Source: an uncultured Clostridia bacterium (lineage in GTDB: Bacteria; Bacillota; Clostridia; TANB77; CAG-508). From it: a stretch of 44,847 nucleotides of DNA. The notes beneath the pieces were generated by a model that did no database searches, was not told the origin of the DNA, and worked only from the letters and a program-made list of their open reading frames with translations. How positions within the stretch are numbered: position 1 is the stretch's first letter; each line of letters starts with the position of its first letter. Both the position numbers and the translations under genes were made by a program. The stretch lies in assembly GCA_944386325.1 (NCBI GenBank), contig CALXAP010000003.1, forward strand, positions 66,488 to 111,334. Direction: 5' to 3'. Below are positions 1-24,225 of the stretch, in pieces.

Positions 1-243
1 CATAATTATAGAAATGGGATGTTTTTTTCAGATAATAAGAAAATAGCAGTTGGAGATAAGATATATATTACAGATGTATCAGGACAAAGACTTACATATA
101 TAGTATATAATACATATGAAACAACAGCAGAAGATTCTGATTACATGGTTAGAGATACAGGTGGAGCAATAGAAATATCACTATCAACATGTACAGATTA
201 CGATTCTTCAAGAAGAATAATTATATGGGCAAGAGCAGAATAA
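1..243 (+). CDS. Sortase, C-terminal part (5' end outside window)
   Basis: This is the last 81 codons of a sortase open from the first base in frame 1. The first codons read HNYRNGMFF, which is the catalytic-His region, and the end carries the catalytic LSTCTDYDSSRR stretch with the Cys and Arg of the sortase active site. Sortases are membrane-anchored extracellular transpeptidases that join surface proteins to the envelope. Over the region visible, only about nine residues differ from the third sortase (1102-1800), so copies one and three are recent duplicates, with the middle copy more divergent. The N-terminal anchor is not visible. Confidence 0.85.
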   Translation, partial: HNYRNGMFFSDNKKIAVGDKIYITDVSGQRLTYIVYNTYETTAEDSDYMVRDTGGAIEISLSTCTDYDSSRRIIIWARAE

Positions 244-8354: not shown

Positions 8355-9221
8355 GTGGAACAATCAAAGCGTTTTGAAAATACTAAAAAAGCTAGTTTGA
8401 TTGGCATTTTTGCAAATATTTTTTTGTTAATAATAAAAGGAATAATAGGAGTTTTAACAAAAAGTCAATCAATGATTGCAGATAGTATAAATAGTGCATC
8501 AGATATATTTGCATCTTTTATGACTTTTTTAGGAAATAAAATTGCAAGTGAACCGAGTGATGAATCTCATAATTTTGGTCATGGAAAAGCAGAATATCTT
8601 TTTTCTATGTTTATTAGTATTGCAATGATATTTCTTGCAATAAAACTACTCACGGATTCTATAATAGCACTTTATAATGGATCACATTTAATATTTTCTT
8701 GGGGATTAATTATAGTTTGTATTATAACAATATTAGTAAAATTTTCTCTTTATATATATGTAAGATCACTAAATAAAAAAAATAATAACATATTATTAGA
8801 AGCAAACTATAAAGATCATAGAAATGATTGTATAGTAACAACAGGTACTTTAATATCTTCTATATTTGCCTTATATGGTGTGTTTTGGGTAGATTCAGTT
8901 ATTGGTATATTTATTTCTTTATGGATATTATATACAGGCGTAAAAATTTTTATAGAAAGTTATAATATACTTATGGATAAATCTGTTGATGAAGATATAA
9001 AGGATAATATATTAGATATTGCACATACATATAAAGAAATTAAAAGTATTTCTGATTTTTATTCTAGCCCTTCAGGATATAAATATAATATATTTTTAAC
9101 AATATATATTGATGGAAATATGTCTACATTTGAAAGTCATGATATTGCAGACTCACTTGAAAATGATATAAAAAAATTAGAAAGGATTAATAATGTTATT
9201 ATTCATGTAAATCCTGTATAA
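8355..9221 (+). CDS. Cation diffusion facilitator (CDF) family transporter
   Basis: About 288 aa. It has the CDF layout of six membrane segments and a cytoplasmic C-terminal domain. The metal-site motif in membrane segment 2 is IADSINSASDIFASF (first D of the usual HxxxD/DxxxD arrangement), followed by SHNFGHGKAEYLFS, the conserved GHGKxE loop; a second metal motif is ANYKDHRNDCIVT. The family exports Zn, Fe, Mn or related divalent metals in exchange for protons. GTG 8355 is chosen because TTGGAG lies at 8341-8346; the open frame begins at ATG 8304, which lacks a good site. Metal specificity cannot be read. Single-gene unit. Confidence 0.88.
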   Translation: MEQSKRFENTKKASLIGIFANIFLLIIKGIIGVLTKSQSMIADSINSASDIFASFMTFLGNKIASEPSDESHNFGHGKAEYLFSMFISIAMIFLAIKLLTDSIIALYNGSHLIFSWGLIIVCIITILVKFSLYIYVRSLNKKNNNILLEANYKDHRNDCIVTTGTLISSIFALYGVFWVDSVIGIFISLWILYTGVKIFIESYNILMDKSVDEDIKDNILDIAHTYKEIKSISDFYSSPSGYKYNIFLTIYIDGNMSTFESHDIADSLENDIKKLERINNVIIHVNPV

Positions 9222-9376
9222 CTAAGATGATGAGAAATAATATATTTAATTTTCTATATATAATTGTGAGGTTTGATGGATTATATTATTTTTCTATGGC
9301 AAAAAGTAAAAAATAGTTGAATACCATACATATAAATGTTAAAATAGAAAATATTAAAAATAAAGGAGATAATAAT

Positions 9377-9973
9377 ATGAATTTACCAAATAAGCTTACT
9401 ATTTTTAGAATAATTTTAGTTCCACTAATGGTTGTAATACCACTATTTAATATAAAAGGAAATTGGCTAGGCATTCCTGTAGAATATTGGATAATAAATG
9501 TAATTTTTATAATCGCATCAATTACAGATAAATTAGATGGAAGTATTGCAAGAGCTAGAAATCAAGTAACAACATTTGGTAAATTTTTAGATCCATTAGC
9601 AGATAAAATATTAGTAATAGCTGCAATGGTTATTTTAGTTGAATATGCAAAATTACCTGCATGGATTCCAATAATAGTCTTAGCTAGAGAATTTATTGTA
9701 TCTGGTTATAGATTAATCGCAGTAGAAAAAGGCGGGAAGGTAATTGCTGCTAGTATTTGGGGAAAATTAAAAACTGTCACTCAAATGATAGCAATAATAT
9801 TAGCTTATATAGACATAAATGCATTTGGAGAATTTATAAATGGAAATTTAACAGGCTTTGCTTTAATTTTAAATATAATAGCAACAATTATTATGATAAT
9901 ATCAGTTATTGCAACTGTATTTTCTGGTTGGGATTATTTAAAAAATGGCAAGGAATTATTAAAAGATAAATAA
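9377..9973 (+). CDS. pgsA: CDP-diacylglycerol-glycerol-3-phosphate 3-phosphatidyltransferase
   Basis: A 198-aa integral membrane enzyme that makes phosphatidylglycerol phosphate from CDP-diacylglycerol and glycerol-3-phosphate, the committed step to anionic phospholipids. The CDP-alcohol phosphotransferase signature is intact: DKLDGSIARARNQVTTFGKF followed by LDPLADK, giving D-x2-DG-x2-AR-x8-G-x3-D-x3-D. It starts NLPNKLTIFRIILVP, typical of PgsA. ATG 9377 is preceded by AAAGGAGAT; the longer open frame from 9317 lacks a ribosome site. It is 15 nt upstream of ligA and probably co-transcribed. Confidence 0.93.
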   Translation: MNLPNKLTIFRIILVPLMVVIPLFNIKGNWLGIPVEYWIINVIFIIASITDKLDGSIARARNQVTTFGKFLDPLADKILVIAAMVILVEYAKLPAWIPIIVLAREFIVSGYRLIAVEKGGKVIAASIWGKLKTVTQMIAIILAYIDINAFGEFINGNLTGFALILNIIATIIMIISVIATVFSGWDYLKNGKELLKDK

Positions 9974-11983
<2,010 letters not shown>

Positions 11984-11989
11984 AAAATT

Positions 11990-12229
11990 ATGGAAAATTA
12001 TACATTTAGTAATTTTTGGAAAGATTTAGATGATGGATTAGAAATATATTATAAATATATGGGCAGAAAATATTTAATTTATAAATTAACAAAAAATTGT
12101 TATAGACAAGAATTAATTAAAGATGATAATGAAAAATCTCCACATCCAAAAACATCAATACTTACACTTAAAAGAGTAAAAGAAATATTTGAATTTATGG
12201 AAGAATTTGAATACAAAACTGGTTTATAA
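11990..12229 (+). CDS. Small hypothetical protein downstream of ligA
   Basis: A 79-aa protein (MENYTFSNFWKDLDDGLEIY) rich in aromatic and Lys residues, with no signal peptide, membrane segment or recognised motif. It begins 6 nt after the ligA stop without a strong ribosome site, which suggests translational coupling. A terminator follows immediately. I do not recognise the family. The acidic/aromatic N-terminus and basic middle could make it a small regulator or binding partner, but nothing visible establishes a function. Confidence 0.6.
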   Translation: MENYTFSNFWKDLDDGLEIYYKYMGRKYLIYKLTKNCYRQELIKDDNEKSPHPKTSILTLKRVKEIFEFMEEFEYKTGL

Positions 12230-12232
12230 CAA

Positions 12233-12273
12233 AAAAATAGCAGGGAATTATATATTCTCCTGTATTTTTTTTT
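12233..12273 (+). terminator. Intrinsic terminator of pgsA-ligA operon
   Basis: AAAATAGCAGGGAAT pairs with ATTCTCCTGTATTTT (one mismatch, one bulge), followed by a run of T. Confidence 0.75.
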
Positions 12274-12351
12274 CATAAAATAATAAAAATCTAATTTGCT
12301 CATGATGGTGATAATTGGCAAATTTTACATATTATTTTTTGATAAAAAATA

Positions 12352-12381
12352 TTGACATAGAATATTAAAAACTAGTATAAT
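12352..12381 (+). promoter_or_regulatory. Promoter of sipW/TasA-like locus
   Basis: TTGACA at 12352-12357 and TATAAT at 12376-12381 with an 18-nt spacer. A leader of about 65 nt follows, in which TAGTC (about 12393) and GACTA (about 12434) could close a small stem-loop just before the gene's ribosome site. Confidence 0.8.
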
Positions 12382-12454
12382 ATCAATGAAGTAGTCGAAA
12401 GAAATAAAAAGATGTAAAAAAATGTAAAAACAAGACTATGGAAGGAAGATAGAA

Positions 12455-13081
12455 GTGAAAAACAGAAGAGAACTGAAAAAAACAGAAATTATGGGATTAA
12501 TATTAAAAATAGTTTTTTTAATAATAGTAATTCCAATTATTTTGATGAGCATAATAGTAATGATAAAAGCAAATAAATACCCAGATAAAATTCCAGATAT
12601 TTTCGGTTATAAGCCAATGATTGTACTATCTGGCTCTATGGAAACAGCTATATATACAGGTGATTTAGTTTTTGTAAAAATAGTAGATACAGATAAATTA
12701 AATGTCGGGGATGTAATAGCATTTAGAAATGAAGTAGATACAGTAACAACACATAGAATTATCAATATTGTTGATAAAAATGGAAAAAGATATTTTGAAA
12801 CTAAGGGAGATAATAATAATACAAAAGACCAAAATTTAGTAGATCCATCAGATGTTGAAGGAGTTTATGTATTTAAGATTCCTAAATTAGGTGAAATATT
12901 ATTACTTTTAAAAGAACCACGTTCATTATTGTTAGTATTACTTATTATATTAGTAATAGGTTTAATATGGTTACAAATAGCAGATAGAAGAGAAAAAGAA
13001 GTATTAAAAAAAGAAGATGAGCAATATAAAAAAGAATTCGAGGAGTTTAAGAAAAGACAAATTGAAAAAAGTAAGAAGTAG
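12455..13081 (+). CDS. SipW-type (ER/archaeal-type) signal peptidase I, first copy
   Basis: A 208-aa membrane serine protease. An N-terminal membrane segment (about 15-35) is followed by the nucleophile box VLSGSMETAIYTGDLVF and, instead of the bacterial catalytic Lys, a His in TTHRIINIVD, then TKGDNNNTKD. His instead of Lys is the hallmark of SipW/ER-type peptidases. A second membrane segment (about 155-172) and a charged cytoplasmic tail follow. SipW releases TasA-family proteins from the membrane in Bacillus. GTG 12455 follows GGAAGGAAG. The next gene encodes a TasA-like substrate candidate, so enzyme and substrates are in one locus. Confidence 0.88.
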   Translation: MKNRRELKKTEIMGLILKIVFLIIVIPIILMSIIVMIKANKYPDKIPDIFGYKPMIVLSGSMETAIYTGDLVFVKIVDTDKLNVGDVIAFRNEVDTVTTHRIINIVDKNGKRYFETKGDNNNTKDQNLVDPSDVEGVYVFKIPKLGEILLLLKEPRSLLLVLLIILVIGLIWLQIADRREKEVLKKEDEQYKKEFEEFKKRQIEKSKK

Positions 13082-13082
13082 T

Positions 13083-13113
13083 ATATAGCCAAACTTAAAA
13101 AGTTTGTTATATA
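13083..13113 (+). other. Hairpin between sipW and major TasA-like gene
   Basis: ATATAGCCAAACTT and AAGTTTGTTATAT form a near-perfect stem with a small loop. There is no T tract, so it is more likely an mRNA processing/stability element than a terminator. Confidence 0.5.
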
Positions 13114-13163
13114 AAAAGTAAAAATAATAAAATACAGAAGAAATAAAAGGGGGTGAAAAACAA

Positions 13164-13751
13164 ATGAAAAAAAGCACAGTTACAATAGTAATAGCATTAC
13201 TTATAATTTTAACAGTATGCCTATATTTTATATCTGGAACATATGCTAGATATGCAGATTCACGTTCTGGAAATGCAACTGTAAGTGTGGCAAAATGGTC
13301 AGTATCTATTACAGATGGAACAGATCCATTAAATAGTGATTTTACATTACCATTTACAGTAGAAGAAAATGAAAATGTAGTTGCAAATAAAATAGCACCA
13401 GAAACAACAGCAAAAGCAAATATAGAGCTTGATTTAACAGGAACAGAAGTTGCTGTAGATTTTGAAGCAACAATAAGTGAAGAAAATTTAGCAACAGTAT
13501 TTGGAGATAGTGCAGATGATGTTGAAGTTACAACATCTATTACAGGAGCTGCTACAAGCGGAACAACAACAACAATTCCATTAAAAGATGGACAAGCTTT
13601 TACAGCTGAAAATGGAAAAATAAATATAGAAATTACTTTAACATGGACAAATAATGATGCACACAATACATCAGATACTCAAGTTGGAGTTACAGGGGGA
13701 ACTTTAGAATTACCAGTTGAGTTAACTTTAAAACAACATATTGGTGCTTAG
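13164..13751 (+). CDS. TasA/camelysin-like secreted protein (major candidate)
   Basis: A 195-aa exported protein with a SipW-dependent type signal: MKKSTVTIVIALLIILTVCL then SGTYARYADS, followed by the mature start NATVSVAKWSVSI. The rest is beta-rich, Thr/Glu-rich and Cys-free, ending in LKQHIGA. The pattern AKWSVSI(T), IAPETTAKANIELDLTGTEV and WTNNDAHNT matches TasA/camelysin-type biofilm fibre subunits. It has the strongest ribosome site of the cluster (AAGGGGGTG) and is followed by two hairpins, so it is probably the most abundant product. Cleavage by the adjacent SipW-like peptidases and assembly into extracellular fibres are inferred, not shown. Confidence 0.8.
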   Translation: MKKSTVTIVIALLIILTVCLYFISGTYARYADSRSGNATVSVAKWSVSITDGTDPLNSDFTLPFTVEENENVVANKIAPETTAKANIELDLTGTEVAVDFEATISEENLATVFGDSADDVEVTTSITGAATSGTTTTIPLKDGQAFTAENGKINIEITLTWTNNDAHNTSDTQVGVTGGTLELPVELTLKQHIGA

Positions 13752-13806
13752 TATAATTATTTTAATGTTATAAATTTGTTTTGGCATTAAATAATAAATG
13801 TAAAAT

Positions 13807-13863
13807 TTTAATGGAAGTTTTTTTAAACTTCCATTAAAGTCTATATCATTTGATATAGATTTT
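13807..13863 (+). terminator. Tandem hairpins after the major TasA-like gene
   Basis: Hairpin 1 is a perfect 14-bp stem at 13807-13820/13825-13838. Hairpin 2 is TCTATATCA / TGATATAGA at 13840-13859 followed by TTTT. The sequence at 13860-13874 repeats the 5' arm of hairpin 1 almost exactly, so alternative pairing is possible. The pair probably protects the upstream mRNA and reduces read-through into the four downstream exported-protein genes. Confidence 0.7.
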
Positions 13864-13907
13864 AATGAAGGTTTAAAGAAAAACAAAAGAGGAGGAAAAT
13901 TTAATAC

Positions 13908-14597
13908 ATGAAGGACAAAAAGATAATACTTATTATAATTTGTCTTATTATTTTTGTTGTAATAGTGTACTTTTTAATAAGACATTTTGCATTAATAAAC
14001 ATGAAGACACCAACAGGAAATGTAAATATTTTTGATATAAATTTTATTGAACAAAATGATGATAATAGTGCAAATAATACTAATTCTTTAGAAAATGATG
14101 ATGAAAAAAATGATAATATTTATTTTACTCATAATAAAGAAGAACAAATAAATACATTAGGTGAAAGTTTAACTGTTTATGATAATAATACAGTGTATGA
14201 AAGTAGTACACCACTAAAAATATTTGAGAATAAATCATATTATGTAAAAGATGATTTAATAGCACCAGAAAGTGAAAATTCATATCAATTTATAATAAGA
14301 AACAACAATGAATTTGCAATCAGATATGGTTTAGAATTTAATCAAAATAATCCATATAATATAAATATGAAATATAGATTAAAGCAGGATGGAAAATACA
14401 TAATAGGTGATGATGAGAGCTGGGTAACTGCAGGGGAGTTACTTCAAAATGGAGTAGTTTTAGCAGATTATTCTTATAATGTATATACATTAGATTGGAA
14501 ATGGTTTGAGACTGATGATGATATAGATACAAAAATAGGGACAAATATAGAAGCTAATTATAGCTTAAATATAAACATTTTTGCCAGTAGATATTAA
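13908..14597 (+). CDS. Secreted/membrane-anchored protein of the TasA-like locus
   Basis: A 229-aa protein with one N-terminal membrane segment (about residues 5-25), a polar Asn/Asp-rich linker (about 45-75), and a beta-rich domain including DDLIAPESENSYQFIIRNNN, a stretch resembling the IAPxxxGxFxxxIxN feature of TasA-like proteins, and ending NIFASRY. Unlike its neighbours it lacks the S/A-R-Y motif right after the membrane segment, so it may stay anchored and act like an anchor or assembly factor (compare TapA in Bacillus; functional analogy only). ATG 13908 is preceded by GAGGAGGAA. It is 23 nt upstream of the next TasA-like gene. Confidence 0.6.
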   Translation: MKDKKIILIIICLIIFVVIVYFLIRHFALINMKTPTGNVNIFDINFIEQNDDNSANNTNSLENDDEKNDNIYFTHNKEEQINTLGESLTVYDNNTVYESSTPLKIFENKSYYVKDDLIAPESENSYQFIIRNNNEFAIRYGLEFNQNNPYNINMKYRLKQDGKYIIGDDESWVTAGELLQNGVVLADYSYNVYTLDWKWFETDDDIDTKIGTNIEANYSLNINIFASRY

Positions 14598-14620
14598 ATA
14601 AAGACAGGTGGGTGGTAAAA

Positions 14621-15217
14621 GTGAAATTAAAAGAAAGATATAAAACTAAAGGAACAAGAAAAGTTATTAGATTTATTATTTTTTACTTGTTTTTTACTAT
14701 TTTGTTAATAATAACTTCTACATTTTCAAGATATACAACAATACAAGAAGGACAACCCAAAGCGTATATAGCCAATTGGAATGTAAAAATAAACAATGAG
14801 GATATAACAAATAAAACAACTTTATCAAATGTAATAACATTAGTACCAGATTCAATGAAAGAAACAACTACAGACAATAAAATAGCACCAGGAAAATATG
14901 GACACTTTGATTTGATTATAAATCCAACGGGGACAGAAGTAGCGGTGGAATATACTATAAGTTTAGATGTTACAAATTTACCGCAAGGAATAGTATTAAC
15001 AAATTATGAAATTATTGAGGATAGTATATTTCAGAGTTTTACAGATACAAATATAGTTGGTGAAATAAATTTAAGTAATAAAGAGCAAGCACTAAGTGAA
15101 AATGATAAGAAAACAATAAGAGTATATTGGGAGTGGAAAGAAGATAGTACTTATATACCAACAGAAGATGATAGTTATGATATTTCTGTAATGATTAATA
15201 TAAGGCAAAAGTTATAA
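14621..15217 (+). CDS. TasA-like secreted protein, second
   Basis: About 198 aa. A basic N-terminus leads into a hydrophobic stretch (about residues 18-37) ending STFSRYTTI, then IANWNVKINNEDIT, which parallels AKWSVSI in the first TasA-like protein. Further shared features are DNKIAPGKYGHFDLIINPTG followed by TEVAVEYTISL, and RVYWEWKED near the end. These match the TasA/camelysin fold, with the IAPG and W-x-W segments intact. GTG 14621 is chosen, with GGTGG just upstream; GTG 14612 is an in-frame alternative. Predicted substrate of the SipW-like peptidases that flank the cluster. Confidence 0.75.
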   Translation: MKLKERYKTKGTRKVIRFIIFYLFFTILLIITSTFSRYTTIQEGQPKAYIANWNVKINNEDITNKTTLSNVITLVPDSMKETTTDNKIAPGKYGHFDLIINPTGTEVAVEYTISLDVTNLPQGIVLTNYEIIEDSIFQSFTDTNIVGEINLSNKEQALSENDKKTIRVYWEWKEDSTYIPTEDDSYDISVMINIRQKL

Positions 15218-15252
15218 ATCATATTTTAATAAATGAAGGAGGTATAGTAAAA

Positions 15253-15753
15253 ATGAAGACAAAAGTAAAGTTTCTTATACTTGCGTTTATAATTATATCA
15301 AGTATATTTTTTATAAATTCAACGACATCAAGATATTTATCAGAGGTAAATTCTAAAACTGATGTAGATGTTGCTATGCCTCAAATAGAAATAGAAGTGA
15401 GTAATGTTTCAAAAGAATTAATGTTTCCTGGAGATACAAAAGAGGTGGAATTTTATATAAAAAACTATGATAATATAAATATTAATGAAGTTTTAATGAC
15501 ATATTATATAACTTTAGATATTACTGATTCAACAATACCTCTTAATTATAAAATATATGACATAACGCAGAATAATCAAATCGAATTACCACAGACTGCA
15601 CAAGGATTTGGACCTATAACTTTAAATTATGGAATGCAAGAAGATAGACATTATAAAATTGTTTTTTCTTGGGATGAAAGTGATAATAGTGCAACATATG
15701 CAGGAAAGCAATTTAAATTTAATATAGAAGTTAATGCAATACAACAAATATAA
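15253..15753 (+). CDS. TasA-like secreted protein, third
   Basis: A 166-aa exported protein. The hydrophobic segment (about residues 5-23) ends in NSTTSRYLSEV, the same S-R-Y boundary seen in its neighbours. The mature part is beta-rich, with PGDTKEVEFYIKNYDN, LNYKIYD and KIVFSWDESDNSATY, and no Cys. This resembles a shorter TasA/camelysin domain. ATG 15253 follows GAAGGAGGT. It is 35 nt after the previous gene and 39 nt before the next, within one operon. Confidence 0.7.
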   Translation: MKTKVKFLILAFIIISSIFFINSTTSRYLSEVNSKTDVDVAMPQIEIEVSNVSKELMFPGDTKEVEFYIKNYDNININEVLMTYYITLDITDSTIPLNYKIYDITQNNQIELPQTAQGFGPITLNYGMQEDRHYKIVFSWDESDNSATYAGKQFKFNIEVNAIQQI

Positions 15754-15792
15754 TTAAACTAAATATAATTACAAAGGAGGAGTAAAGCTATA

Positions 15793-17139
15793 ATGAAAAA
15801 ATATATTAGTATATCTATTTTAATAATATTATTGTTAAGCATATATGTAATTAATATATCATTGGCTAGATATGAGAAAAATCTGAAAAGTGATACAATT
15901 ACATTAGGGTCTATTGCTAACACTCCAATAACTGCAACTATAACTTCAGTATCTGATACAGATAACACATTTGATATTACTGTTACAAATAATAATCCAT
16001 ATGAAGTAAAGTATAAAATTAAAGAGGAAAATGATTTATATAATGTAGATTATTCAGGAATACTTAATTCATATATAACTATTCCCGCAAATACTACCAA
16101 AACAATAAGAGTAGTTTTTAGTGGAAAGCAAGATGTTATTTATGAGGACATGGGAAAAGATCAATATGGTAATTTATATAAAGATATAAATATAGTAATA
16201 GATGAAGATGAGCCATATAATGTAAATCAAATACAAATAGGAACAGGAATTAGAGTATATCTTCAAAAAAGTATTAAGAATGAGATAATCAAAAATGCAG
16301 GAGAAATTACAAATTATGAAGAAGGACATATTTTTACAGGAATATCTGCTAGTGATGAAGGAGGATTATGTTCTATAGTAGATCCTGTATCTGGAGAAAC
16401 AACATATTTCTTTAGGGGAAATGTTACTAATAATTATGTTTCTTTTGCAGGTTATACATGGAGAATTTTAAGAATTAATCCAGATGGTTCTTTAAGGCTT
16501 GTATTGAATTCTATTGCTACAAATTCTCAGTATAAGAGTACTAATACATCATCTGCAAATAATATAGATACAGCAATACAACATATTGAATGGGAAGATT
16601 CGATGGTGTATTCTGCATTACATACATGGTACAATAATAATATAGCATCACAGTATAGTAATTATGTAGTTGAATCAAATTTTGTGTTTGATACATCAAA
16701 TCAAGATTCTACATCATCATCAGCAGGTGCATGCTACTATTTTGGAACATATTTAAGAGTTGGATTAGATGGAAAAGCATATAAACCTACATTTTCATAT
16801 ACAGATGAAAGTTTAGTAAGAGATTATATTGGACTACTTACAGGTGATGAGATATTATATGCTGGAGGATATTGGAAAGAAGATAATACATCGTACTTTT
16901 TATATAATCAATCAATAAATACAGAATATTGGACAATGTCACCATCTTTCTGGGATCATGGTTCTCATTATAAAATAGGTATTATGGCATTAAATGCTTC
17001 AGGAGCATTAAATGATTGGCCTGGTAGTGGAAACACAATAACTGAAGATATTGGAATAAGACCAGTAATATCAATAAGAGGAGACTTAGAGATGGATGGA
17101 ATTGGAACAGCATCAAATCCATATAAATTTAAAAATTAA
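15793..17139 (+). CDS. TasA-like N-terminal domain fused to a C-terminal sulfatase-modifying/lectin-like domain
   Basis: A 448-aa exported protein. The SipW-type signal ends ISLARYEKN; residues to about 150 form a TasA-like beta domain with TVTNNNPYEVKYKIKEEN. From about 185 a second domain begins: YFFRGNVTNNYVSFAGYTWR, then RILRINPDGSLRLVL, WEDSMVYSALHTWYNN, EYWTMSPSFWDHGSHYK and IGIRPVISIRGDLEM. That order (envelope W-R-I, then W-x-M-S-P, then R-P-V-I-S) is a module seen on many clostridial surface proteins (DUF6273-like; assignment tentative). It is the only large member of the locus and could be a tip or binding subunit of the fibre. ATG 15793 follows AAAGGAGGAG. Confidence 0.65.
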   Translation: MKKYISISILIILLLSIYVINISLARYEKNLKSDTITLGSIANTPITATITSVSDTDNTFDITVTNNNPYEVKYKIKEENDLYNVDYSGILNSYITIPANTTKTIRVVFSGKQDVIYEDMGKDQYGNLYKDINIVIDEDEPYNVNQIQIGTGIRVYLQKSIKNEIIKNAGEITNYEEGHIFTGISASDEGGLCSIVDPVSGETTYFFRGNVTNNYVSFAGYTWRILRINPDGSLRLVLNSIATNSQYKSTNTSSANNIDTAIQHIEWEDSMVYSALHTWYNNNIASQYSNYVVESNFVFDTSNQDSTSSSAGACYYFGTYLRVGLDGKAYKPTFSYTDESLVRDYIGLLTGDEILYAGGYWKEDNTSYFLYNQSINTEYWTMSPSFWDHGSHYKIGIMALNASGALNDWPGSGNTITEDIGIRPVISIRGDLEMDGIGTASNPYKFKN

Positions 17140-17151
17140 TTAGAGGGTAAA

Positions 17152-17760
17152 ATGAAAATATATACAACGGAAGAAATAACAAAAAAATTGAATAGAAAGA
17201 AAATAATAAAAAATATTTTTAAAGCGATAATATACCCAATTATTATTTTAGTTTTAATTTGTAATATAATATTGTTAGTACAAAAAATAATAACACCCGA
17301 TAAGATAGCGACTATATTTGGCTACAAAGCTTTTGTCATATCTTCAGGTAGTATGGAGCCAACACTAAATATAGGAGATATTGTAATAATAAAAGAAACA
17401 AAACAAGAACAAATAAGTAAAGGTAATATTATAACTTTCAGAAAAGATGGTTACAATATTACACATAGAATTAATGATATAATAGAAAAAGATGGAGAAA
17501 AATATTATCAAACAAAAGGAGATAAAAATACTACAACTGATATGGATTTAGTTAAATATGAGGAGATTGAAGGGGCATATGTTTTTAAAATAGATAAAAT
17601 AGGAAGCATAATTACTTATGCTCAAAATACTACTACAATAATTATAATTATATGTGCTATATACCTTATATATAGAATTTCTGCAGAGAAAGATGATAGA
17701 AAAATTGCAAGACATGAAAAAAGAAAAGAATATGAAAAGAAAAATCAAAATGAAAAATAG
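17152..17760 (+). CDS. SipW-type signal peptidase I, second copy
   Basis: A 202-aa membrane protease with nucleophile box VISSGSMEPTLNIGDIVII and catalytic His in ITHRINDIIEKDG, then TKGDKNTTTDMDLV. There are membrane segments at about 20-42 and about 160-177. It is a paralogue of the peptidase at 12455-13081, with the canonical SGSMEP rather than SGSMET. It is 12 nt after the two-domain TasA-like gene with ribosome site GAGGG. Two peptidases bracketing the substrates suggest either division of substrates or a duplicated module. Confidence 0.88.
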   Translation: MKIYTTEEITKKLNRKKIIKNIFKAIIYPIIILVLICNIILLVQKIITPDKIATIFGYKAFVISSGSMEPTLNIGDIVIIKETKQEQISKGNIITFRKDGYNITHRINDIIEKDGEKYYQTKGDKNTTTDMDLVKYEEIEGAYVFKIDKIGSIITYAQNTTTIIIIICAIYLIYRISAEKDDRKIARHEKRKEYEKKNQNEK

Positions 17761-17795
17761 CTAAAAATATATCATTTATAAAAAGGATGATACAA

Positions 17796-18683
17796 ATGAT
17801 ACTTTATTATAAACCAGATGATAATATAAAATTGCAAAAGCAAAATATACAAAAAAGTATAGAGATACAAATTAAGATGCAAGAAAATTATTCGAAAATT
17901 TTATTAGAATGTTTAAAAAACATAAATGATCTTATACAAAATACAGAAAATTTTGAAACTATAAATGGATTAGTAGAATTATTAAGAGAAATTAAAGTAA
18001 ATTTAGAACAATTAAGATCAAATATATTAAAAATAAAAAATTTACAAATTTTATTAGAGTCTATACCTTGTGATATTTCAGATAATATATCAATTTTAGA
18101 AAAATATAATAAGTTTGCTATTGAATGTCAAGATGATATATATAATATCATTCCTAGAGTAAATGATTTTATTTTAAAATATGTAGAAAAGGCATCATTT
18201 AAAGTAAGCTTAGAAAATACTATAGAAAATAATTTTATAGAAAAAGAAAAACAAATAGAAGATAAGTATGAAAAAAAAGAAATTACAGATAATGATACAT
18301 TAATTATATCTGAAATAAAAAATAAAGTTTTTCTACCTTATTCTGTGACAGAATTAAATGAGAAGTTAAATAATAATAAAAATTATAGAAATTTAGAAGA
18401 TGTTATAAATAAGGAATATATAATACCTTTTGATAGATATAAAAATTCTATAATTGCACGATTTAGAGAGACATATAATTTAATGAGAAAAAAAGAAAAT
18501 GCTTCTATAACAGATAGTTTAGATTTGGCTTTAGAACTTTCTTTTAATAATTTATTAAATCCTGCAATTATAACTGCTTGTAAGAGCTTAGATGAACTTG
18601 ATATATATTTAGATTGCTTAAATTCAAATGAGCTTGATAAGTTTACTATATTTAAAATAAAGTATGAAATTTTACCAAGATAA
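17796..18683 (+). CDS. Unknown coiled-coil protein at end of TasA-like locus
   Basis: A 295-aa cytoplasmic-looking protein with no signal or membrane segment. The first ~110 residues are heptad-rich helix (IQKSIEIQIKMQENYSKILL; LVELLREIKVNLEQLRSNIL), and the C-terminal half contains a second helical block with YRNLEDVINKEYIIPFDRYK. ATG 17796 is chosen because AAGGATGA precedes it; ATG 17787 is in frame but overlaps that site. It follows the second SipW copy by 35 nt and is probably in the same transcript. I do not recognise the family; a scaffold or regulatory role is only a guess from composition. Confidence 0.6.
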   Translation: MILYYKPDDNIKLQKQNIQKSIEIQIKMQENYSKILLECLKNINDLIQNTENFETINGLVELLREIKVNLEQLRSNILKIKNLQILLESIPCDISDNISILEKYNKFAIECQDDIYNIIPRVNDFILKYVEKASFKVSLENTIENNFIEKEKQIEDKYEKKEITDNDTLIISEIKNKVFLPYSVTELNEKLNNNKNYRNLEDVINKEYIIPFDRYKNSIIARFRETYNLMRKKENASITDSLDLALELSFNNLLNPAIITACKSLDELDIYLDCLNSNELDKFTIFKIKYEILPR

Positions 18684-18826
18684 TTAGATTATATTTAAAA
18701 TATATTTTATATTTCATTATATAAAATATATGCAAATGAATTATTAAAATGGAGTAATATATAAACACTTTACAATATGTATCGTGATATATTCTAATAT
18801 GAAATAAAAAAATGGAGGAATTAGTT

Positions 18827-19183
18827 ATGAAAAATATATTTATAGAATATCCAAAATGTTCTACTTGTAAAAAAGCTAAGAAATGGCTAGAAGAAAAAAA
18901 TATAGAATTTGAGGATAGACATATAATAGAACAGACACCTACAGTAAAAGAATTAACAGAGTGGATAAAGAAAAGCGAGTTAGATATAAAAAAATGGTTT
19001 AATACAAGTGGAATGAAATATAAAGAGCTTAATCTAAAAGAAAAATTATCAAATATGAGTGATAAGGAGAAGATAGAATTATTAGCAAGTGATGGAATGC
19101 TAATAAAAAGACCTATATTAATATCAGATAAGGGAATATTTGTAGGTTTTAAAGAAGATAAATGGAGCATACTAATTAGATAA
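18827..19183 (+). CDS. ArsC/Spx family thioredoxin-fold protein
   Basis: A 118-aa protein with the ArsC-family redox site CSTCKK (Cys11, Cys14) after FIEYPK, then HIIEQTPTVKELTEWIKKS, KKWFNTSGMKYKEL, and LLASDGMLIKRPILISDKG. The family contains glutaredoxin-type arsenate reductases and the RNA-polymerase regulator Spx; the RPILI motif is common to both. Absence of any arsenic gene nearby and the CxxC at the very N-terminus leave the role open; the YffB/Spx-like group is most likely. ATG 18827 follows TGGAGGAAT. Confidence 0.85.
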   Translation: MKNIFIEYPKCSTCKKAKKWLEEKNIEFEDRHIIEQTPTVKELTEWIKKSELDIKKWFNTSGMKYKELNLKEKLSNMSDKEKIELLASDGMLIKRPILISDKGIFVGFKEDKWSILIR

Positions 19184-19214
19184 ATAGTATGTATTTTTAA
19201 CTTAATAAAAATTA

Positions 19215-19303
19215 GCAGAAGAAGAAAATTTAGAAAAAATCTTATTGAAAGAGATTCGAGAAGATATTGAAGAAATAAATGAGAATGCCGGAAAATTAGT
19301 ATA
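19215..19303 (+). pseudogene. Possible decayed gene fragment
   Basis: The 260-nt gap between the ArsC-like and ASCH genes contains a 29-codon open stretch without a start (KLAEEENLEKILLKEIREDI...) and a second start-less open stretch from about 19340 (IIFDDGTEILASDDEKYKNK...) that runs in another frame into the ASCH gene. Both have protein-like composition, so this looks like the remains of one or two small genes. Confidence 0.3.
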
Positions 19304-19444
19304 AATAAGAAGAAATTTAGAATGAAGATAATAAAATCCTAATTATTTTTGATGATGGTACAGAAATATTAGCAAGTGACGATGAGAAATACAAAAATAA
19401 ATACGATGAATGTGAAAGTAATAGGATAAAGGAGATAGATAAAA

Positions 19445-19873
19445 ATGAAAGCTTTAACAATAAAACAGCCATGGGCAACTTTAATAATGCAAAGAGATAA
19501 AAGATTTGAATTTAGAAGTTGGCAAACAAAATATAGAGGAGATTTATTAATACATGCAGGAAAAGGTATAGATAAAGAAGCAATGAAAAGATTAGCAAAA
19601 TATCTTCCAGAAAAATTACCATATGGGAAAATTTTAGGGAAAGTAAAATTAGTAGATTGTATAAAGATGTCTCCAGAATTCAAAGAACTATTGTTAAAAG
19701 AAAATAGTGATATTTATACTAAAAGTTCTTTTCAAGAAAAGTATGGATGGCAAGTTTCAGATGTTGAAGTATTTGAAGATCCAATAGATGCAAAAGGTCA
19801 TTTAAGCTTATGGGAATATAGAATTAAAATACATAAAAATAATTCAAAAATATTTAAATATGTGTTAAAATGA
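19445..19873 (+). CDS. ASCH domain protein
   Basis: A 142-aa protein starting MKALTIKQPWATLIM, the standard ASCH-domain opening, with FRSWQTKYRGDLLIHAGKG and ending GHLSLWEYRI. ASCH proteins have a PUA-like fold that binds RNA or modified nucleosides; some are N4-acetylcytidine amidohydrolases. No further catalytic assignment is possible from this reading. ATG 19445 is preceded by AAAGGAGAT. It sits between a decayed fragment and the AlbA_2 gene, with a hairpin just downstream. Confidence 0.85.
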   Translation: MKALTIKQPWATLIMQRDKRFEFRSWQTKYRGDLLIHAGKGIDKEAMKRLAKYLPEKLPYGKILGKVKLVDCIKMSPEFKELLLKENSDIYTKSSFQEKYGWQVSDVEVFEDPIDAKGHLSLWEYRIKIHKNNSKIFKYVLK

Positions 19874-19899
19874 TAGAAATATAATAAAATAGTAAAGAA

Positions 19900-19946
19900 A
19901 AAATGTCGCTTTATATGCAAAAATATCGCTTATAAGCGACATTTTT
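19900..19946 (+). terminator. Repeat-bearing hairpin between ASCH and AlbA_2 genes
   Basis: AAAATGTCGCTT (from 19900) pairs with AAGCGACATTTT (from 19934); the loop carries a third copy, AAATATCGCTTATA. The same AAGCGA(C/T)AT unit forms the hairpin after the AlbA_2 gene. It acts as a terminator by form and may also be a binding site. Confidence 0.65.
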
Positions 19947-20018
19947 ATAAAAATTGGTTGTAATAAAAGTATAAAAGTGATAATATAATATTAAAATTAC
20001 AATATGGAGGTATATAAT

Positions 20019-21452
20019 TTGAAGATAAAAGATTATGAAAAAGCAGAAACAAGTAATATCGATTATAAAGTTGCATTAGAAGAAAGAAAACCTAAAAGTT
20101 GGTTGAAATCGGTATCAGCATTCGCTAATTCAAAAGGTGGAATCATTTTATTCGGAGTGGATGACAGTACACATGAACTAAAAGGATTAGATAATATTAA
20201 ACAGGTAGCTGAAAAAATTACTGAAATTATAAATGCTAGAATTTTACCATTACCTAGATATGAAATAAATTCTTTTACTGAAAATGGGAAAGATTTTTTA
20301 GAATTAAAAATAGGAGATGGACCGTCAACTCCTTATTATTTAGTAATAGATGGAAGAAAAGAAGCTTTTATTCGTTCTGGAAATCAAAGTATACCTGCTC
20401 CAGAGCATATATTAAATAATCTCATATTAAAAGGGAAAAATTTAACATTTGATGCATTACCAACAGATTATAAAATTAATGATTTAAGTTTTACTTTGTT
20501 AGCAGCGACGATAAAAGAAAAAACGAATAAAAAATTTGATGAAAATAAAGATTTCTTTTCTTTAGGATTAGCTAACACTGAAAAAGAACTAACAAATGCG
20601 GGACTATTATTAAGTGACCAAAATCCATTAAAGCAGTCTAAAATTGTATGTACTAGGTGGAAAGGCTTAAATAAGGGAATAATAGCAGAAGATGCAATCG
20701 ATGACAAGGAATATAATGGAAGTATTATAGCATTATTAGAGAATGCAGATTCTTTTATAAAAAATAATTCTAAAATGTCTTGGAAAGTTGTAGGAATGGA
20801 AAGACAAGAACTAGAGGAATATCCTATTACTGCCCGTAGGGAAGCAATAGTAAATGCATTAATTCACAGAGATTATCAGATTTTAGGAGCAGAAATTCAT
20901 ATAGATATGTTTGATGATAGATTAGAAATTACTTCACCAGGAGGAATGTTTGATGGAAGTCTTATTCAAAATTTAGAGATAAAAAATATTCCATCTATGA
21001 GAAGAAATATTGTAATTGCAGATATTTTCAGTAGATTACATTACATGGATCGCAGAGGAAGTGGATTAAGTAGAATATTGGAGAGCTATAATGATTCTAT
21101 TCAAAAACCAAAATTTATTTCTGATTCTCTATCATTTACAGTAATGTTTCCTAATAAGGGCTATTATAAAACAAATGAAATGGATGAAAATAAAAATATT
21201 GTTTCAGATAGTGATTTATTTTTTATACAGTTATATAAAAGTATACAAAATACAAATATTAGAAATAGTACAATAAATCAAATAAGAAATATTTTTGAAA
21301 AAATGGGTTACAATAATATGTTTTCTAGGGAAGATATAAAGAACATTTTAAATATAAAAGATACAAGGGCAACTAATTTAATTTCTTTACTTTTAGATTT
21401 GGAGCTTATTGTTAAGGCTGAAGGAACAAAATATAAATTTCAAAAGCAATAA
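20019..21452 (+). CDS. AlbA_2/Schlafen-type putative DNA-binding protein with C-terminal HATPase-like domain
   Basis: A 477-aa protein. Residues ~1-125 form an AlbA_2 (Schlafen AAA_4) domain: NIDYKVALEERKPKSWLKSV, SAFANSKGGIILFGVDD, and FIRSGNQSIPAP. The middle has the RecG-like/GHKL C-terminal module REAIVNALIHRDYQ, LEITSPGGMFDG and HYMDRRGSGLSRILE; a winged-helix region (REDIKNILNIKDTRATNLIS) ends the protein. This architecture is that of transcriptional regulators annotated as 'ATP-binding, AlbA_2'. TTG 20019 is preferred because GGAGG at 20006-20010 is 8 nt upstream and overlaps ATG 20004. Flanking AAGCGACAT hairpins may be its targets (inference). Confidence 0.8.
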   Translation: MKIKDYEKAETSNIDYKVALEERKPKSWLKSVSAFANSKGGIILFGVDDSTHELKGLDNIKQVAEKITEIINARILPLPRYEINSFTENGKDFLELKIGDGPSTPYYLVIDGRKEAFIRSGNQSIPAPEHILNNLILKGKNLTFDALPTDYKINDLSFTLLAATIKEKTNKKFDENKDFFSLGLANTEKELTNAGLLLSDQNPLKQSKIVCTRWKGLNKGIIAEDAIDDKEYNGSIIALLENADSFIKNNSKMSWKVVGMERQELEEYPITARREAIVNALIHRDYQILGAEIHIDMFDDRLEITSPGGMFDGSLIQNLEIKNIPSMRRNIVIADIFSRLHYMDRRGSGLSRILESYNDSIQKPKFISDSLSFTVMFPNKGYYKTNEMDENKNIVSDSDLFFIQLYKSIQNTNIRNSTINQIRNIFEKMGYNNMFSREDIKNILNIKDTRATNLISLLLDLELIVKAEGTKYKFQKQ

Positions 21453-21465
21453 AAATGACGGTTAA

Positions 21466-21494
21466 AAGCGATATTTTTTAAAAAAATGTCGCTT
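21466..21494 (+). terminator. Hairpin after AlbA_2 gene, related to 19900-19946
   Basis: AAGCGATATTTTTT pairs with AAAAAAATGTCGCTT almost loop-free. It shares the AAGCGA(C/T)AT unit with the upstream hairpin. Confidence 0.65.
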
Positions 21495-21574
21495 AACGAA
21501 TCGATAATTAAAAAAGTCTATATATAAAAAGACAAAGATAGAAATTTTCTGCAGAGAATACTGCAGAGTTTATA

Positions 21575-21631
21575 AATAAAGTGAGCAAAATGAATAATTA
21601 TAAAATTCAAATTGCCCACTTTATTTTATAA
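21575..21631 (+). terminator. Second terminator in 21453-21870 gap
   Basis: AAAGTGAGCAA and TTGCCCACTTT (one mismatch) form a stem with a long loop, followed by ATTTTAT. The rest of this 418-nt gap is AT-rich sequence in which I see no gene. Confidence 0.55.
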
Positions 21632-21870
21632 CTTATGAAACTAAATTATTAAAATAAATTTAACAAAAATAATTGAATTATAAATTAGTATCGACTGACT
21701 CGAAATATATAATTTATAAGTTAAAAATATAGGATACCTAACTAATAGTAGATATGTTAAAAAATATTAATAAAATAACATGTTTTTATCACACAAAAGT
21801 TAAATTTACATAATTTGATAAAATCTTAAAAATAGTATATAATATATAGACATAAAAGGAGGGAATAGCT

Positions 21871-24225
21871 TTGTTAGAAAAACTAGGAAAAGAAGAATTA
21901 ATAGAAAGATTAAAAGAATTAGAAAAAGAAAATAAAGAACTAAAAGAAAAATTGTATGGAAATTTAGACAGAAAAGTAGAAGAAAAAGAAATAAGTAAAG
22001 AAACAAAAGCTATTTCAACTGAAGAAAAAATAAAAATATTTATGGAAATATTTAAAGGGAGGACAGATATTTATTCGAAAAGGTGGACAAGTAGTACAAC
22101 AGGAAAATCAGGGTATTCACCAGTATGTATAAATGAATTTAATACATATAAATGTGATAAACCAAGAGTTAAATGCAATAATTGTAGTTTTAGAGAGTTA
22201 CAACCTTTAACAGAAAATGTTATATTAAAACATTTACAAGGAAAAATAACAATCGGAATTTACCCATTATTACCGGGAGATTTATGTAATTTTTTAGCAA
22301 TAGATTTTGATAAAAAGACTTATGAGAAAGATGTATTAGCATTTTGGAATATATGTGATGAACTAAATATACCAATATATGTTGAAAAATCGCGATCTGG
22401 AAATGGAGCGCATGTATGGATATTTTTTGAAGAAAGCATGCCAGCAAATATTGCTAGAAAAATGGGAAATATTCTTTTAACAAAAACGATGGAGAAAGAA
22501 TCATTGGATTTGGACTCATATGATAGGTTATTTCCAAACCAGGATACAATGCCTAAGGGTGGATTTGGCAATCTAATAGCCTTACCTTTTCAGGGGGAAA
22601 GTAGTAAGAGTGGAAATACAGTTTTTGTAAATAAATATTTTGAGCCAGAAAAAAATCAATTTGAAATTTTGGAAAATATAAAAAGAATTAAAAGTGATGA
22701 TGTTTATAATTTTGTTAATAAATATAGGGAAGATGATTATAAAGAGCCTGATGTGGATCAGATAGAAGATAATGAATTGCCTAAAAAAGAAAATTTAAGA
22801 GAAGTTAAATTGGTAAATAATGTAGAATGTATATTTGATAATATGATTTATGTTAAAAAATTAAAATTGTTACCAAATGAAGTATCTTATTTAAAAAGAT
22901 TAGCTAGTTTTACTAATCCAGAATTTTATGAAAAACAAAAATTAAGACTACCTATATATAAAACACCAAGGATCATAAGTTGTTTTGAGGAAGATGATAG
23001 ATTTCTAAAATTACCTAGAGGATGTATAGATAAAATTAAAGAAGTATGTGAAAAAAGTAAGGTTAAATTAATTATAAAAGATACAAGAGAGAAAGGAATT
23101 AATACAGATTATACATTTATAGGAAAACTAAATAAAAAGCAAGAAAATGTAAAGAATGAGTTATTAAAATATGAAACAGGAATATTATGTGCTACTACAG
23201 GTTTTGGAAAAACTGTTATAGGAGCTAAAATTATTTCGGAGTTAAAAACAAATACTTTGATTATAGTAAATAGAAATAATTTATTAGAACAATGGAAAGA
23301 AAGGTTATCCTATTTCTTAAATATAAATAAAAAAGAAATAGGACAAATTGGAGCGAGTAAAGAAAATTTAAATGGTGAATTAGATGTAGCTAGTTTTCAA
23401 TCGTTAGCTAAGAAAAACAATTTAGATGAGATAGTTAAGGATTATGGGCTTGTTATAATAGATGAATGTCATCATGTTGCAGCATTTAGTTTTGAAAAAG
23501 TATTGAAAGCTATAAGAAGTAAATATGTATATGGATTAACAGCAACACCTACAAGAAAAGACGGATGGCATAAAATTATTTATATGCAATGTGGGGATAT
23601 AAGAGTTAGAGTAGCAAATCGAGAATTAAAACAAAATAAAGAAATGGAACATGTAGTAATTGTAAAGAGTACAGGTTATAAATATATTTCTGCTGAAGAA
23701 AAAGACAAAATACAAATTTCAGAAATCCTAAATGACATGTGTCATAATATATTTAGGAACAATATGATAGTTCAAGACATAAAGAGATGTGTTTTAGATG
23801 GTAGAATTCCTATTGTTTTAACAGAAAGGGTAGAACATTTAAAAATATTAAAAGAAGAATTAGATAGTATAAATGTTCCAGTTGTTATATATAAAGGAGC
23901 AATGGGAAAGAAAAAAACAAAAGAAATTCGAGACACTATTGATGAAGCTGATAGAAATAATGAATCAAGAATAATTTTGGCGACAAGTAGTTCTATAGGA
24001 GAAGGTTTTGATGATAGTAGATTAGATACACTATTTTTGACTATGCCAGTTTCATGGAAAGGAAGAATCTTGCAATATGTAGGAAGACTTCACCGAGAAC
24101 ATGAAGATAAAGGTAAAGTAATTGTTTATGATTATTTAGATAATATGAAAGTCTTAGAAAAAATGTATTTTAGAAGAATAAAAGGATATAAGATTGCTGG
24201 ATATGAAATTATAGAAGAATTATAA
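21871..24225 (+). CDS. TOTE-type archaeo-eukaryotic primase fused to SF2 helicase
   Basis: A 784-aa fusion. Residues 1-45 are a coiled coil. A Cys cluster (Cys86, 95, 102, 105) precedes an archaeo-eukaryotic primase (AEP) domain with the catalytic DxD in LAIDFD (Asp145/147), SGNGAHVW (His181) and RLFPNQD, then NLIALPFQ. A superfamily 2 helicase follows: Walker A CATTGFGKT (Lys447), DECHH (531-535), GLTATPTRKDG, and GEGFDDSRLD plus QYVGRLHRE near the end. This AEP type is the one described from TOTE conflict systems. TTG 21871 follows AAAGGAGGG. No nuclease partner is adjacent, so it may act alone in DNA repair or defence. It lies just outside the mobile element. Confidence 0.85.
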   Translation: MLEKLGKEELIERLKELEKENKELKEKLYGNLDRKVEEKEISKETKAISTEEKIKIFMEIFKGRTDIYSKRWTSSTTGKSGYSPVCINEFNTYKCDKPRVKCNNCSFRELQPLTENVILKHLQGKITIGIYPLLPGDLCNFLAIDFDKKTYEKDVLAFWNICDELNIPIYVEKSRSGNGAHVWIFFEESMPANIARKMGNILLTKTMEKESLDLDSYDRLFPNQDTMPKGGFGNLIALPFQGESSKSGNTVFVNKYFEPEKNQFEILENIKRIKSDDVYNFVNKYREDDYKEPDVDQIEDNELPKKENLREVKLVNNVECIFDNMIYVKKLKLLPNEVSYLKRLASFTNPEFYEKQKLRLPIYKTPRIISCFEEDDRFLKLPRGCIDKIKEVCEKSKVKLIIKDTREKGINTDYTFIGKLNKKQENVKNELLKYETGILCATTGFGKTVIGAKIISELKTNTLIIVNRNNLLEQWKERLSYFLNINKKEIGQIGASKENLNGELDVASFQSLAKKNNLDEIVKDYGLVIIDECHHVAAFSFEKVLKAIRSKYVYGLTATPTRKDGWHKIIYMQCGDIRVRVANRELKQNKEMEHVVIVKSTGYKYISAEEKDKIQISEILNDMCHNIFRNNMIVQDIKRCVLDGRIPIVLTERVEHLKILKEELDSINVPVVIYKGAMGKKKTKEIRDTIDEADRNNESRIILATSSSIGEGFDDSRLDTLFLTMPVSWKGRILQYVGRLHREHEDKGKVIVYDYLDNMKVLEKMYFRRIKGYKIAGYEIIEEL

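Follow-up and report, generated by a model that had tools for sequence, protein, structure and literature searches.

What would a bacterium export through two dedicated signal peptidases of the SipW type, one near each end of a single operon? The question is raised by a locus at positions 12352 to 18683 of the window, by which we mean the whole stretch analysed: 44,847 nt from an uncultured Clostridia bacterium of the gut (assembly GCA_944386325.1, contig CALXAP010000003.1, positions 66,488 to 111,334). Its product is probably an extracellular fibre of the TasA class, assembled by donor-strand exchange and served by its own two peptidases. Formation of the fibre, cleavage of its subunits and the roles of tip and anchor are what we infer from the following features.

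12352..12381, + strand: sigma-70 promoter, TTGACA-18-TATAAT, 12/12 consensus matches, 73 nt upstream of SP1
12455..13081, + strand: SP1, first of two His-type (endoplasmic reticulum (ER)/SipW-type) signal peptidases, GTG start; TIGR02228; SGSM, THR and KGD boxes
13164..13751, + strand: P2, probable major fibre subunit, 195 aa; predicted cleavage GTYA28/R29Y30 (about 13247/13248); 49-row family; AlphaFold2 (AF2) fold
13807..13899, + strand: conserved RNA element between P2 and P3, with a covarying helix (13822-13877) and an upstream hairpin that competes with it (13805-13840)
13908..14597, + strand: P3, probable membrane-retained base, 229 aa; one N-terminal helix without a cleavage motif, then a P2-homologous domain
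14612..15217, + strand: P4, minor subunit paralogous to P2 by hhalign, 201 aa, GTG start; predicted site TFS/RY
15253..15753, + strand: P5, minor subunit nearest TasA/camelysin, 166 aa; predicted site TTS/RY; family profile matches TasA
15793..17139, + strand: P6, two-domain tip candidate, 448 aa; predicted site SLA/RY; an Ig-like domain spans about 35-160, and a C-terminal domain (about 190-448) has relatives among tips that bear DUF6273
17152..17760, + strand: SP2, second His-type signal peptidase; TIGR02228; SGSM, THR and KGD boxes
17787..18683, + strand: P8, cytosolic 298-aa protein without a signal, starting 26 nt behind SP2; relatives adjoin many SipW-type loci

A first-pass annotation of this DNA had described two His-type peptidases bracketing five exported proteins, and the open reading frames (ORFs) are as it described, the five being membrane-targeted and both peptidases passing the TIGR02228 model. 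The ORF list gives the order promoter, SP1, P2, P3, P4, P5, P6, SP2, P8, with intergenic gaps from SP1 to P8 of 82, 156, 14, 35, 39, 12 and 26 nt. From these gaps and the promoter, SP1 to P8 likely form one transcription unit with a single conspicuous gap behind P2. The promoter is a consensus match alone, the best among 71 sites in the scan; shuffled sequences average 63.8 sites.

We examined the peptidases for family and catalytic type. Against TIGR02228, which describes ER/archaeal-type signal peptidase I, SP1 scores 100.3 bits and SP2 98.0 bits (cut-off 51.85), and each has SGSM as its serine box, THR where a lysine box would stand, and KGD. Among solved structures, SEC11 of the signal peptidase complex comes closest to them by profile. 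On the Bacillus SipW equivalog NF046067 they reach 115.1 and 102 bits, under the curated cut-off of 190. Among relatives, the His box is present in all 71 'first' and all 51 'second' peptidases and the lysine box in none; a strict Ser-Met pattern matched 66/71 and 36/51, respectively. The host genome (1.69 Mb, 37 contigs) encodes one other type I peptidase, located elsewhere and carrying a lysine-type box, SYIKRVIG (L003). SP1 and SP2 therefore look dedicated to this locus.

P2, P3, P4 and P5 share a homologous domain. Profiles were built from the window protein plus 48 of 60 P2 rows (alignment A3), 21 of 28 P3 rows, 16 of 34 P4 rows and 14 of 20 P5 rows (A5 to A7), with Bacilli-type P4 rows omitted from A6. 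Aligned by hhalign, they gave E values of 1.4e-15 (P2-P3), 1.7e-26 (P2-P4), 1.2e-12 (P2-P5) and 1.5e-13 (P4-P5). When the signal parts were removed, E was 1.5e-15 for P2-P3, 9e-24 for P2-P4 and 1.2e-8 for P2-P5. Searched against PDB sequences, the P5-family profile found only TasA at E ≤ 1 (5of1, E 0.0037; 8aur, E 0.0069). These data suggest a remote and not strong sequence homology to TasA, direct for P5 and by way of P5 for P2 to P4. Peptidase_M73 (PF12389) is matched weakly by 4 of 15 P5-family members; P5 itself scores 12.8 bits, below the gathering score of 22.5, and P2, P3, P4 and P6 have no listed match at E ≤ 1.

The AF2 model of P2 (mean predicted local distance difference test (pLDDT) 81.9) is likely a strand-complemented beta-sandwich. 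With this model, Foldseek ranked the chaperone-usher pilin FimG first (E 7.1e-5) and CfaB next; the TasA fibre 8aur came seventh (E 6.7e-3, probability 0.95, TM-score 0.30-0.34) and archaeal bundling pili (7ueg) ninth. VIA listed bundling pili, cannulae and chaperone-usher pilins, along with Ig-type domains of VAP and CEP192, at Z of 6.9 or less. Folds unrelated to TasA, the refuting outcome named with the first-pass annotation, thus did not come about, but the P2 match is modest and does not prove TasA identity by structure. Residues 26-35 of P2 fall below pLDDT 50 in the monomer model. In the parts of PMC9674648 drawn on here, the TasA donor strand is residues 28-38, directly behind the cleavage site, and the unplaced P2 residues overlap the corresponding place. 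We propose that P2 residues 29 to about 45 may form the donor strand. Taken together, the SipW/TasA-like reading of the first-pass annotation stands on the His-type peptidases, the remote TasA homology and the aromatic cleavage sites described next, and is weaker in structure, where the match is modest.

We next looked at the cleavage sites of the exports. (Below, 'position' and a prime mark residues around the cut, as distinct from the proteins P2 to P6.) The predicted sites in the window are GTYA/RY in P2, STFS/RY in P4, STTS/RY in P5 and ISLA/RY in P6, each with Tyr at position P2'. The Arg-Tyr boundary noted earlier in four of the five exports is present, but its pattern is [ST]-x-[AS]-R-Y (TYARY, TFSRY, TTSRY, SLARY) and not S/A-x-R-Y. 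Alignment of the signal regions bore out the conservation of this site. Across the 49 rows of the P2 family, position P3 is always Thr, position P2 always Tyr or Phe, position P1 Ala in 48 and Ser in 1, position P1' always Arg or Lys, and position P2' always Tyr; the last is also invariant in the aligned P4 (17/17) and P5 (15/15) families. The motif exceeds chance: in two-peptidase loci, [ASG][RK][YF] follows the N-terminal helix in 53/53 proteins at the P2 place and 101/117 other operon exports, against 5/103 outside proteins and 1/108 peptidases; three of those five outside proteins are tip proteins just beyond the operon rule. According to the portions of PMC10269814 used here, Escherichia coli LepB cleaves poorly when position P2' is aromatic, the residue at this position of TasA, a protein cut by SipW, is Phe, and Trp at position P2 of the TasA site blocks the active serine of LepB. 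The conserved aromatic residues at positions P2 and P2' therefore fit a need for a SipW-type enzyme, and SP1 and SP2 would cut P2, P4, P5 and P6 at [AS]/R-Y.

P3 is different: no such motif lies behind its N-terminal helix. With a P2-type domain and a helix without a cleavage site, P3 is a probable membrane-retained base. The earlier assignment of P2 as major subunit and P3 as anchor-like protein fits the comparative data on both counts.

P6 is composed of two domains. Its AF2 model, made from a five-row alignment, has a mean pLDDT of 41.5; the N-terminal domain is usable (about 60-80), and the model failed for the C-terminal domain (about 30). The N-terminal model matches complete Ig-like folds (2r39, Z 9.0). 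TasA is absent from the listed fold matches of P6, an absence that excludes nothing. In 37 relatives besides its own genome, P6 has no homologue at E ≤ 0.001. Relatives of its C-terminal domain are found in the tip of L093 (E 4e-116) and in L141, L090 and L099 (E 8.5e-13 to 4.5e-6). The last two connect it with DUF6273 (PF19789, cut-off 23.5), which scores 28.5 bits in the L099 tip, above the cut-off, and 20.6 in that of L090, below it. P6 itself has no match to DUF6273 at E ≤ 1, so its relation to that family is indirect. The call of a large two-domain tip thus holds for the two domains; the N-terminal one is not detectably related to P2 to P5, and the C-terminal one lacks a usable fold.

The passenger domain of the tip differs between lineages. 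GLUG motifs occur in the tips of L073, L087, L094 and L095, Listeria-Bacteroides repeats in L047 and weakly in L152, and DUF4874 with DUF4832, behind an A-K-F boundary, in L103 and L130. The other tips scanned gave no passenger-domain match, and of eight more large proteins from the operons that were compared with Pfam, two had any match at E ≤ 0.01. Read by eye from its letters, the L056 tip resembles leucine-rich surface proteins.

Do these components recur as a unit? We scanned species genomes with an SP1 alignment, which yielded 205 confirmed relatives, and counted loci in the best 80. Since SP1 patterns were used to find the loci, conservation of SP1 is built into the counts, whereas the figures for P2, SP2 and the RNA carry no such bias. 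ORF calling was mechanical, and it split or missed some genes (L084, L118). A P2-type gene directly follows SP1 in 70 of the 80; of the other ten loci, six end behind SP1, two have no called SP1 and two (L084 and L118) have overlapping ORF calls. Where at least 7.5 kb lies behind SP1, a second His-type peptidase is present in 45/47 loci. Comparative genomics, one of the checks proposed with the first-pass annotation, thus shows that the operon recurs.

The closest whole match, L093, has the same gene order, with a P6 of 58% identity before SP2. Other Clostridia-type loci mostly place their tip gene behind the second peptidase, and L109 and L129 have a tip-like gene before SP1. Bacilli-type loci encode a protein of about 630-1,620 aa at the P3 place. 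Within the family, TIGR02228 peptidases occur in 67 of 145 genomes (E ≤ 1e-10), often several in each, and P3-type base genes in 12 of the 145. The rarity of the P3-type gene, and its absence from both other genomes of the same genus, indicate that the operon is patchy. The two-peptidase operon was found in metagenome-assembled genomes (MAGs) labelled Clostridia, Bacilli, Tenericutes and Erysipelotrichaceae, and in the cultured [Clostridium] asparagiforme DSM 15981 (L160). Of the suggested 'clostridial biofilm-fibre type', the fibre is retained as our probable reading; a clostridial SipW fibre had already been published (PMC7395162, as far as drawn on here), and the operon extends to non-clostridial MAGs. 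P8 had no family match above any curated cut-off. P8-type cytosolic genes adjoin many SipW-type loci of all classes in family relatives.

Several results weigh against an anchored, tipped fibre. The P2 profile did not find TasA among PDB sequences, its one match being due to chance (E 0.3), and the fold matches of P2 have low TM-scores (0.3-0.5), VIA Z values all below 8 and unrelated Ig folds among them. The N-terminal domain of P6 matches the P2 profile at E 0.32 (0.15 for other tips) and is not detectably related to P2 to P5; its match to other tips is weak (E 0.0018, probability 15%). Tip N-terminal domains compared with the P2 to P5 profiles gave nothing convincing, the best being P3 against other tips (E 0.0012, probability 19%). 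At the P3 place, [ASG][RK][YF] occurs in 15 of 56 proteins of two-peptidase loci; most of these are Bacilli-type proteins, which often have an S/A-x-F/Y site, making membrane retention there doubtful. L103 and L130, the two loci with DUF4874/DUF4832 tips, lack a downstream second peptidase; in L103 a peptidase immediately precedes SP1 instead. In addition, the 'second' peptidases are not one lineage, the fibre model is computational, and the division of substrates between SP1 and SP2 is conjectural.

With these points in mind, the exports could be TasA-related without building such a fibre: P2 would be a loose matrix polymer like BsaA, P4 and P5 helpers like BsaB/BsaC or CapP, and P6 an independent adhesin that shares only the peptidase. 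The lack of detectable homology between the P6 N-terminal domain and P2 to P5 agrees with this, as do the dispensable helpers BsaB/BsaC of Clostridium perfringens (in the parts of PMC7395162 drawn on) and the chaperone-like modulator CapP of Bacillus cereus (likewise PMC13082335). However, P4 and P5 keep a full subunit domain with a donor-like N-terminus, and P3, a membrane protein that shares this domain, co-recurs with a tip-like gene in the operon. We judge this explanation unlikely and retain the fibre.

Sortase, which acts in pili of Gram-positive bacteria, could also link the fibre subunits or anchor them. There are 12 sortase matches in the 1.69-Mb genome, three of them near the start of the window, but none lies within the operon; the sole LPxTG-like string, LPQTA in P5, is internal with no C-terminal helix after it; and srtB was not required for BsaA in the text of PMC7395162 used here. 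A sortase-assembled pilus was rejected, as P2 to P6 have no C-terminal LPxTG-type signals, and we regard any such role for sortase as very improbable. The three sortase domains stand in a row at window positions 1-234 (beginning before the window), 667-1029 and 1429-1794.

Why two peptidases? Our guess from gene order is that P2 is probably the substrate of SP1, while SP2 would act mainly on minor or tip proteins. Alternatively, SP2 may be a redundant duplicate and both enzymes may cut every substrate; their catalytic boxes are identical, and all sites belong to the same motif class. A careful tree of 136 rows, whose bootstrap is not fully settled (correlation 0.971), argues for distinct slots. 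All 72 'first' peptidases fall together on one side of a branch (support 97/93), which sets them apart from the 'second' ones in 97% of bootstrap trees. Both slots also persist in distant lineages. The 52 'second' peptidases require three changes on the tree because Bacilli-type ones cluster with a group that we call class B. The first slot is therefore stable, and the occupant of the second may have arrived or been replaced repeatedly. Overall, we find redundancy somewhat unlikely and favour a division of labour between the two enzymes.

Further SipW-type arrangements came to light. Class B clusters of family relatives (L065, L068, L070, L074-L077, L079, L080, L082, L083) have two His-type peptidases about 6 kb apart. 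The genes in that interval code for about 330, 510 and 370 aa, DUF2357 being present in one of them, and the exports show a 'YAWF' boundary; these clusters possibly represent another secretion or appendage system. A third arrangement (L048-L052, L062, L071) places tandem pairs of His-type peptidases beside one protein of about 690-1,620 aa. In family relatives (e.g., G064:C14:24219 and G136:C119:1722), many His-type peptidase domains lie inside frames of about 360-430 aa, roughly twice the usual length, which suggests a fused extra domain.

The gap behind P2 holds a conserved RNA. Its median length across loci is 96.5 nt, against 14 for later gaps, and its best stem has a median of 14, against 7.1 in mononucleotide shuffles. 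We aligned the window with 33 of 55 listed gaps (alignment A8); 22 with insertions, near-copies or a poor fit were omitted by eye, so that the covariation counts describe the better-aligned part of the gaps. In these 34 sequences, 18 of the 27 pairs of helix 13822-13877 have changes on both sides, and double-change cells number 145, compared with 53.5 in shuffles (0/500 as high) and at most 40 when the helix is slid. G-U pairs, together with plus-strand scores that exceed minus-strand scores in the same loci, point to an RNA of the coding strand, the exception being L129 with a weak minus-strand match alone.

A covariance model built on this alignment matched the plus strand in 22 of 55 sources. 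Of these, 21 had no part in A8 (20/28 locus sources and 1/26 relatives' loci). By coordinates, every match lies directly behind the P2 gene, or behind the second copy where P2 is duplicated. In L136 and L144 the P2-type gene is a tandem duplicate with the element behind the second copy only. The element occurs at one place in its own genome and at a single place in each of 12 of 287 genomes of the order. Nine of the 12 were examined. Eight have it directly behind a P2-type gene, and the ninth, L179, which is on the contig of L084, has it between SP1 and P3, where the P2 ORF was not called. Four of the nine (L084, L101, L104, L153) are loci seen again and not new, and L181 has its match on the opposite strand. 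None of the Rfam families attains its gathering score, and permissive-threshold matches are almost all miRNA-type chance matches. To the extent searched, this is an undescribed element tied to the operon.

In C. perfringens, a terminator is predicted behind bsaA, with a short sipW-bsaA mRNA and a long read-through mRNA (parts of PMC7395162 drawn on). By analogy, we propose that the hairpin here may serve the same purpose. It could be a plain intrinsic terminator or an mRNA 3' stabiliser with no switching; it occupies the position of the predicted bsaA terminator, and long stems are common there (at least 9 in 50/60 gaps). Yet the terminator scan returned one site, on the minus strand, with no T run after the hairpin on the + strand, and in 31/34 sequences the 5' arm of the helix can instead pair with a segment upstream, so that the two folds partly exclude each other. 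We give the plain hairpin an even chance against a switch.

How might such a fibre be built? In the excerpted text of PMC9674648, the strand behind the TasA cleavage site enters subunit n+1, and in that of PMC10151520, TapA is a complete Ig fold that donates its N-terminus to start TasA. Here, the signal helix would hold each pre-subunit in the membrane until a peptidase frees its N-terminus, which would become a beta-strand filling the groove of the next subunit. Since that subunit would still be anchored, the fibre would grow from its base. P6, with an apparently complete Ig-like domain and a donor N-terminus, would start the fibre, and would therefore end with its passenger domain at the far tip; P2, with P4 and P5, would extend it. 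This order is suggested by analogy with TapA and TasA and by the pattern of sites. P3 would have a groove and no free N-terminus, and may thus end assembly and tie the fibre to the cell, as its P2 domain and uncleaved helix suggest. The hairpin in the P2-P3 gap, ahead of the minor genes, would set how far the major subunit is in excess.

As a broader proposal, which we hold only tentatively, the operon could define a widespread, undescribed class of cell-anchored adhesive fibres in gut Firmicutes. Such fibres would grow at the membrane by donor-strand exchange, with a polarity reversed relative to chaperone-usher pili, and begin with a tip whose passenger can be exchanged (DUF6273-like, GLUG, Listeria-Bacteroides repeat or DUF4874/DUF4832). 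They would end in an uncleavable base homologue, and have two specialised SipW-type peptidases for different subunits and a new three-segment RNA switch, placed after the major-subunit gene, that sets the subunit ratio. To our knowledge, few surface appendages are known from uncultured small-genome gut Firmicutes, and the operon would give them a plausible adhesive fibre. It is also one possible reason why SipW-type peptidases are kept in these genomes. The aromatic residue at position P2' offers a testable rule for spotting SipW-type substrates, and the related operon in cultured [C.] asparagiforme makes the mechanism testable.

We compared the locus with known systems. In the open-licence PMC literature (subscription journals and bioRxiv lay outside the scope), our searches listed no publication that describes either a SipW operon with two peptidases or this RNA. 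Like B. subtilis tapA-sipW-tasA, the locus combines a His-type peptidase of the SipW type, an aromatic P2' site with a proposed donor strand directly behind it, a probable jellyroll/Ig-like fibre subunit and a separate candidate initiator with an apparently complete Ig fold. It differs in having two peptidases, four subunit-like proteins plus a two-domain tip candidate, and a probably membrane-retained homologue (P3), and its peptidases score below the Bacillus SipW cut-off (115 and 102 vs 190 bits). C. perfringens sipW-bsaABCRSD likewise has sipW first, the major subunit second, a transcription break behind it and minor exported genes next; the likeness concerns gene order. That operon differs in its single peptidase and its two-component system bsaRS, no counterpart of which was seen by eye among the ORFs of window positions 9000-22000, and the parts of PMC7395162 drawn on describe no base/tip pair. 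Bacillus had been credited with two SipW substrates, but B. cereus has more: TasA, CalY and CapP (PMC13082335, in the portions used). Its sipW-tasA, calY and capP resemble the present locus, as we read it, in providing several SipW substrates for a heteropolymer, and differ in having one SipW, a chaperone-like CapP and separate transcription units.

Compared by fold alone, archaeal bundling pili (7ueg) and threads are also secreted strand-complemented fibres. We know of no two-peptidase operon for them. Chaperone-usher pili, which are assembled by outer-membrane usher and chaperone systems, have the strand-complemented pilin fold that P2 probably shares, and their FimG and CfaB are among the best matches of the P2 model; the inferred polarity is opposite, as the chaperone-usher tip accepts a strand whereas here the base would accept it. 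We conclude that the locus is a variant of the SipW/TasA system of Bacillus and the SipW/BsaA system of Clostridium, in which the covarying RNA hairpin and the lineage-varying tip passenger are newly observed here.

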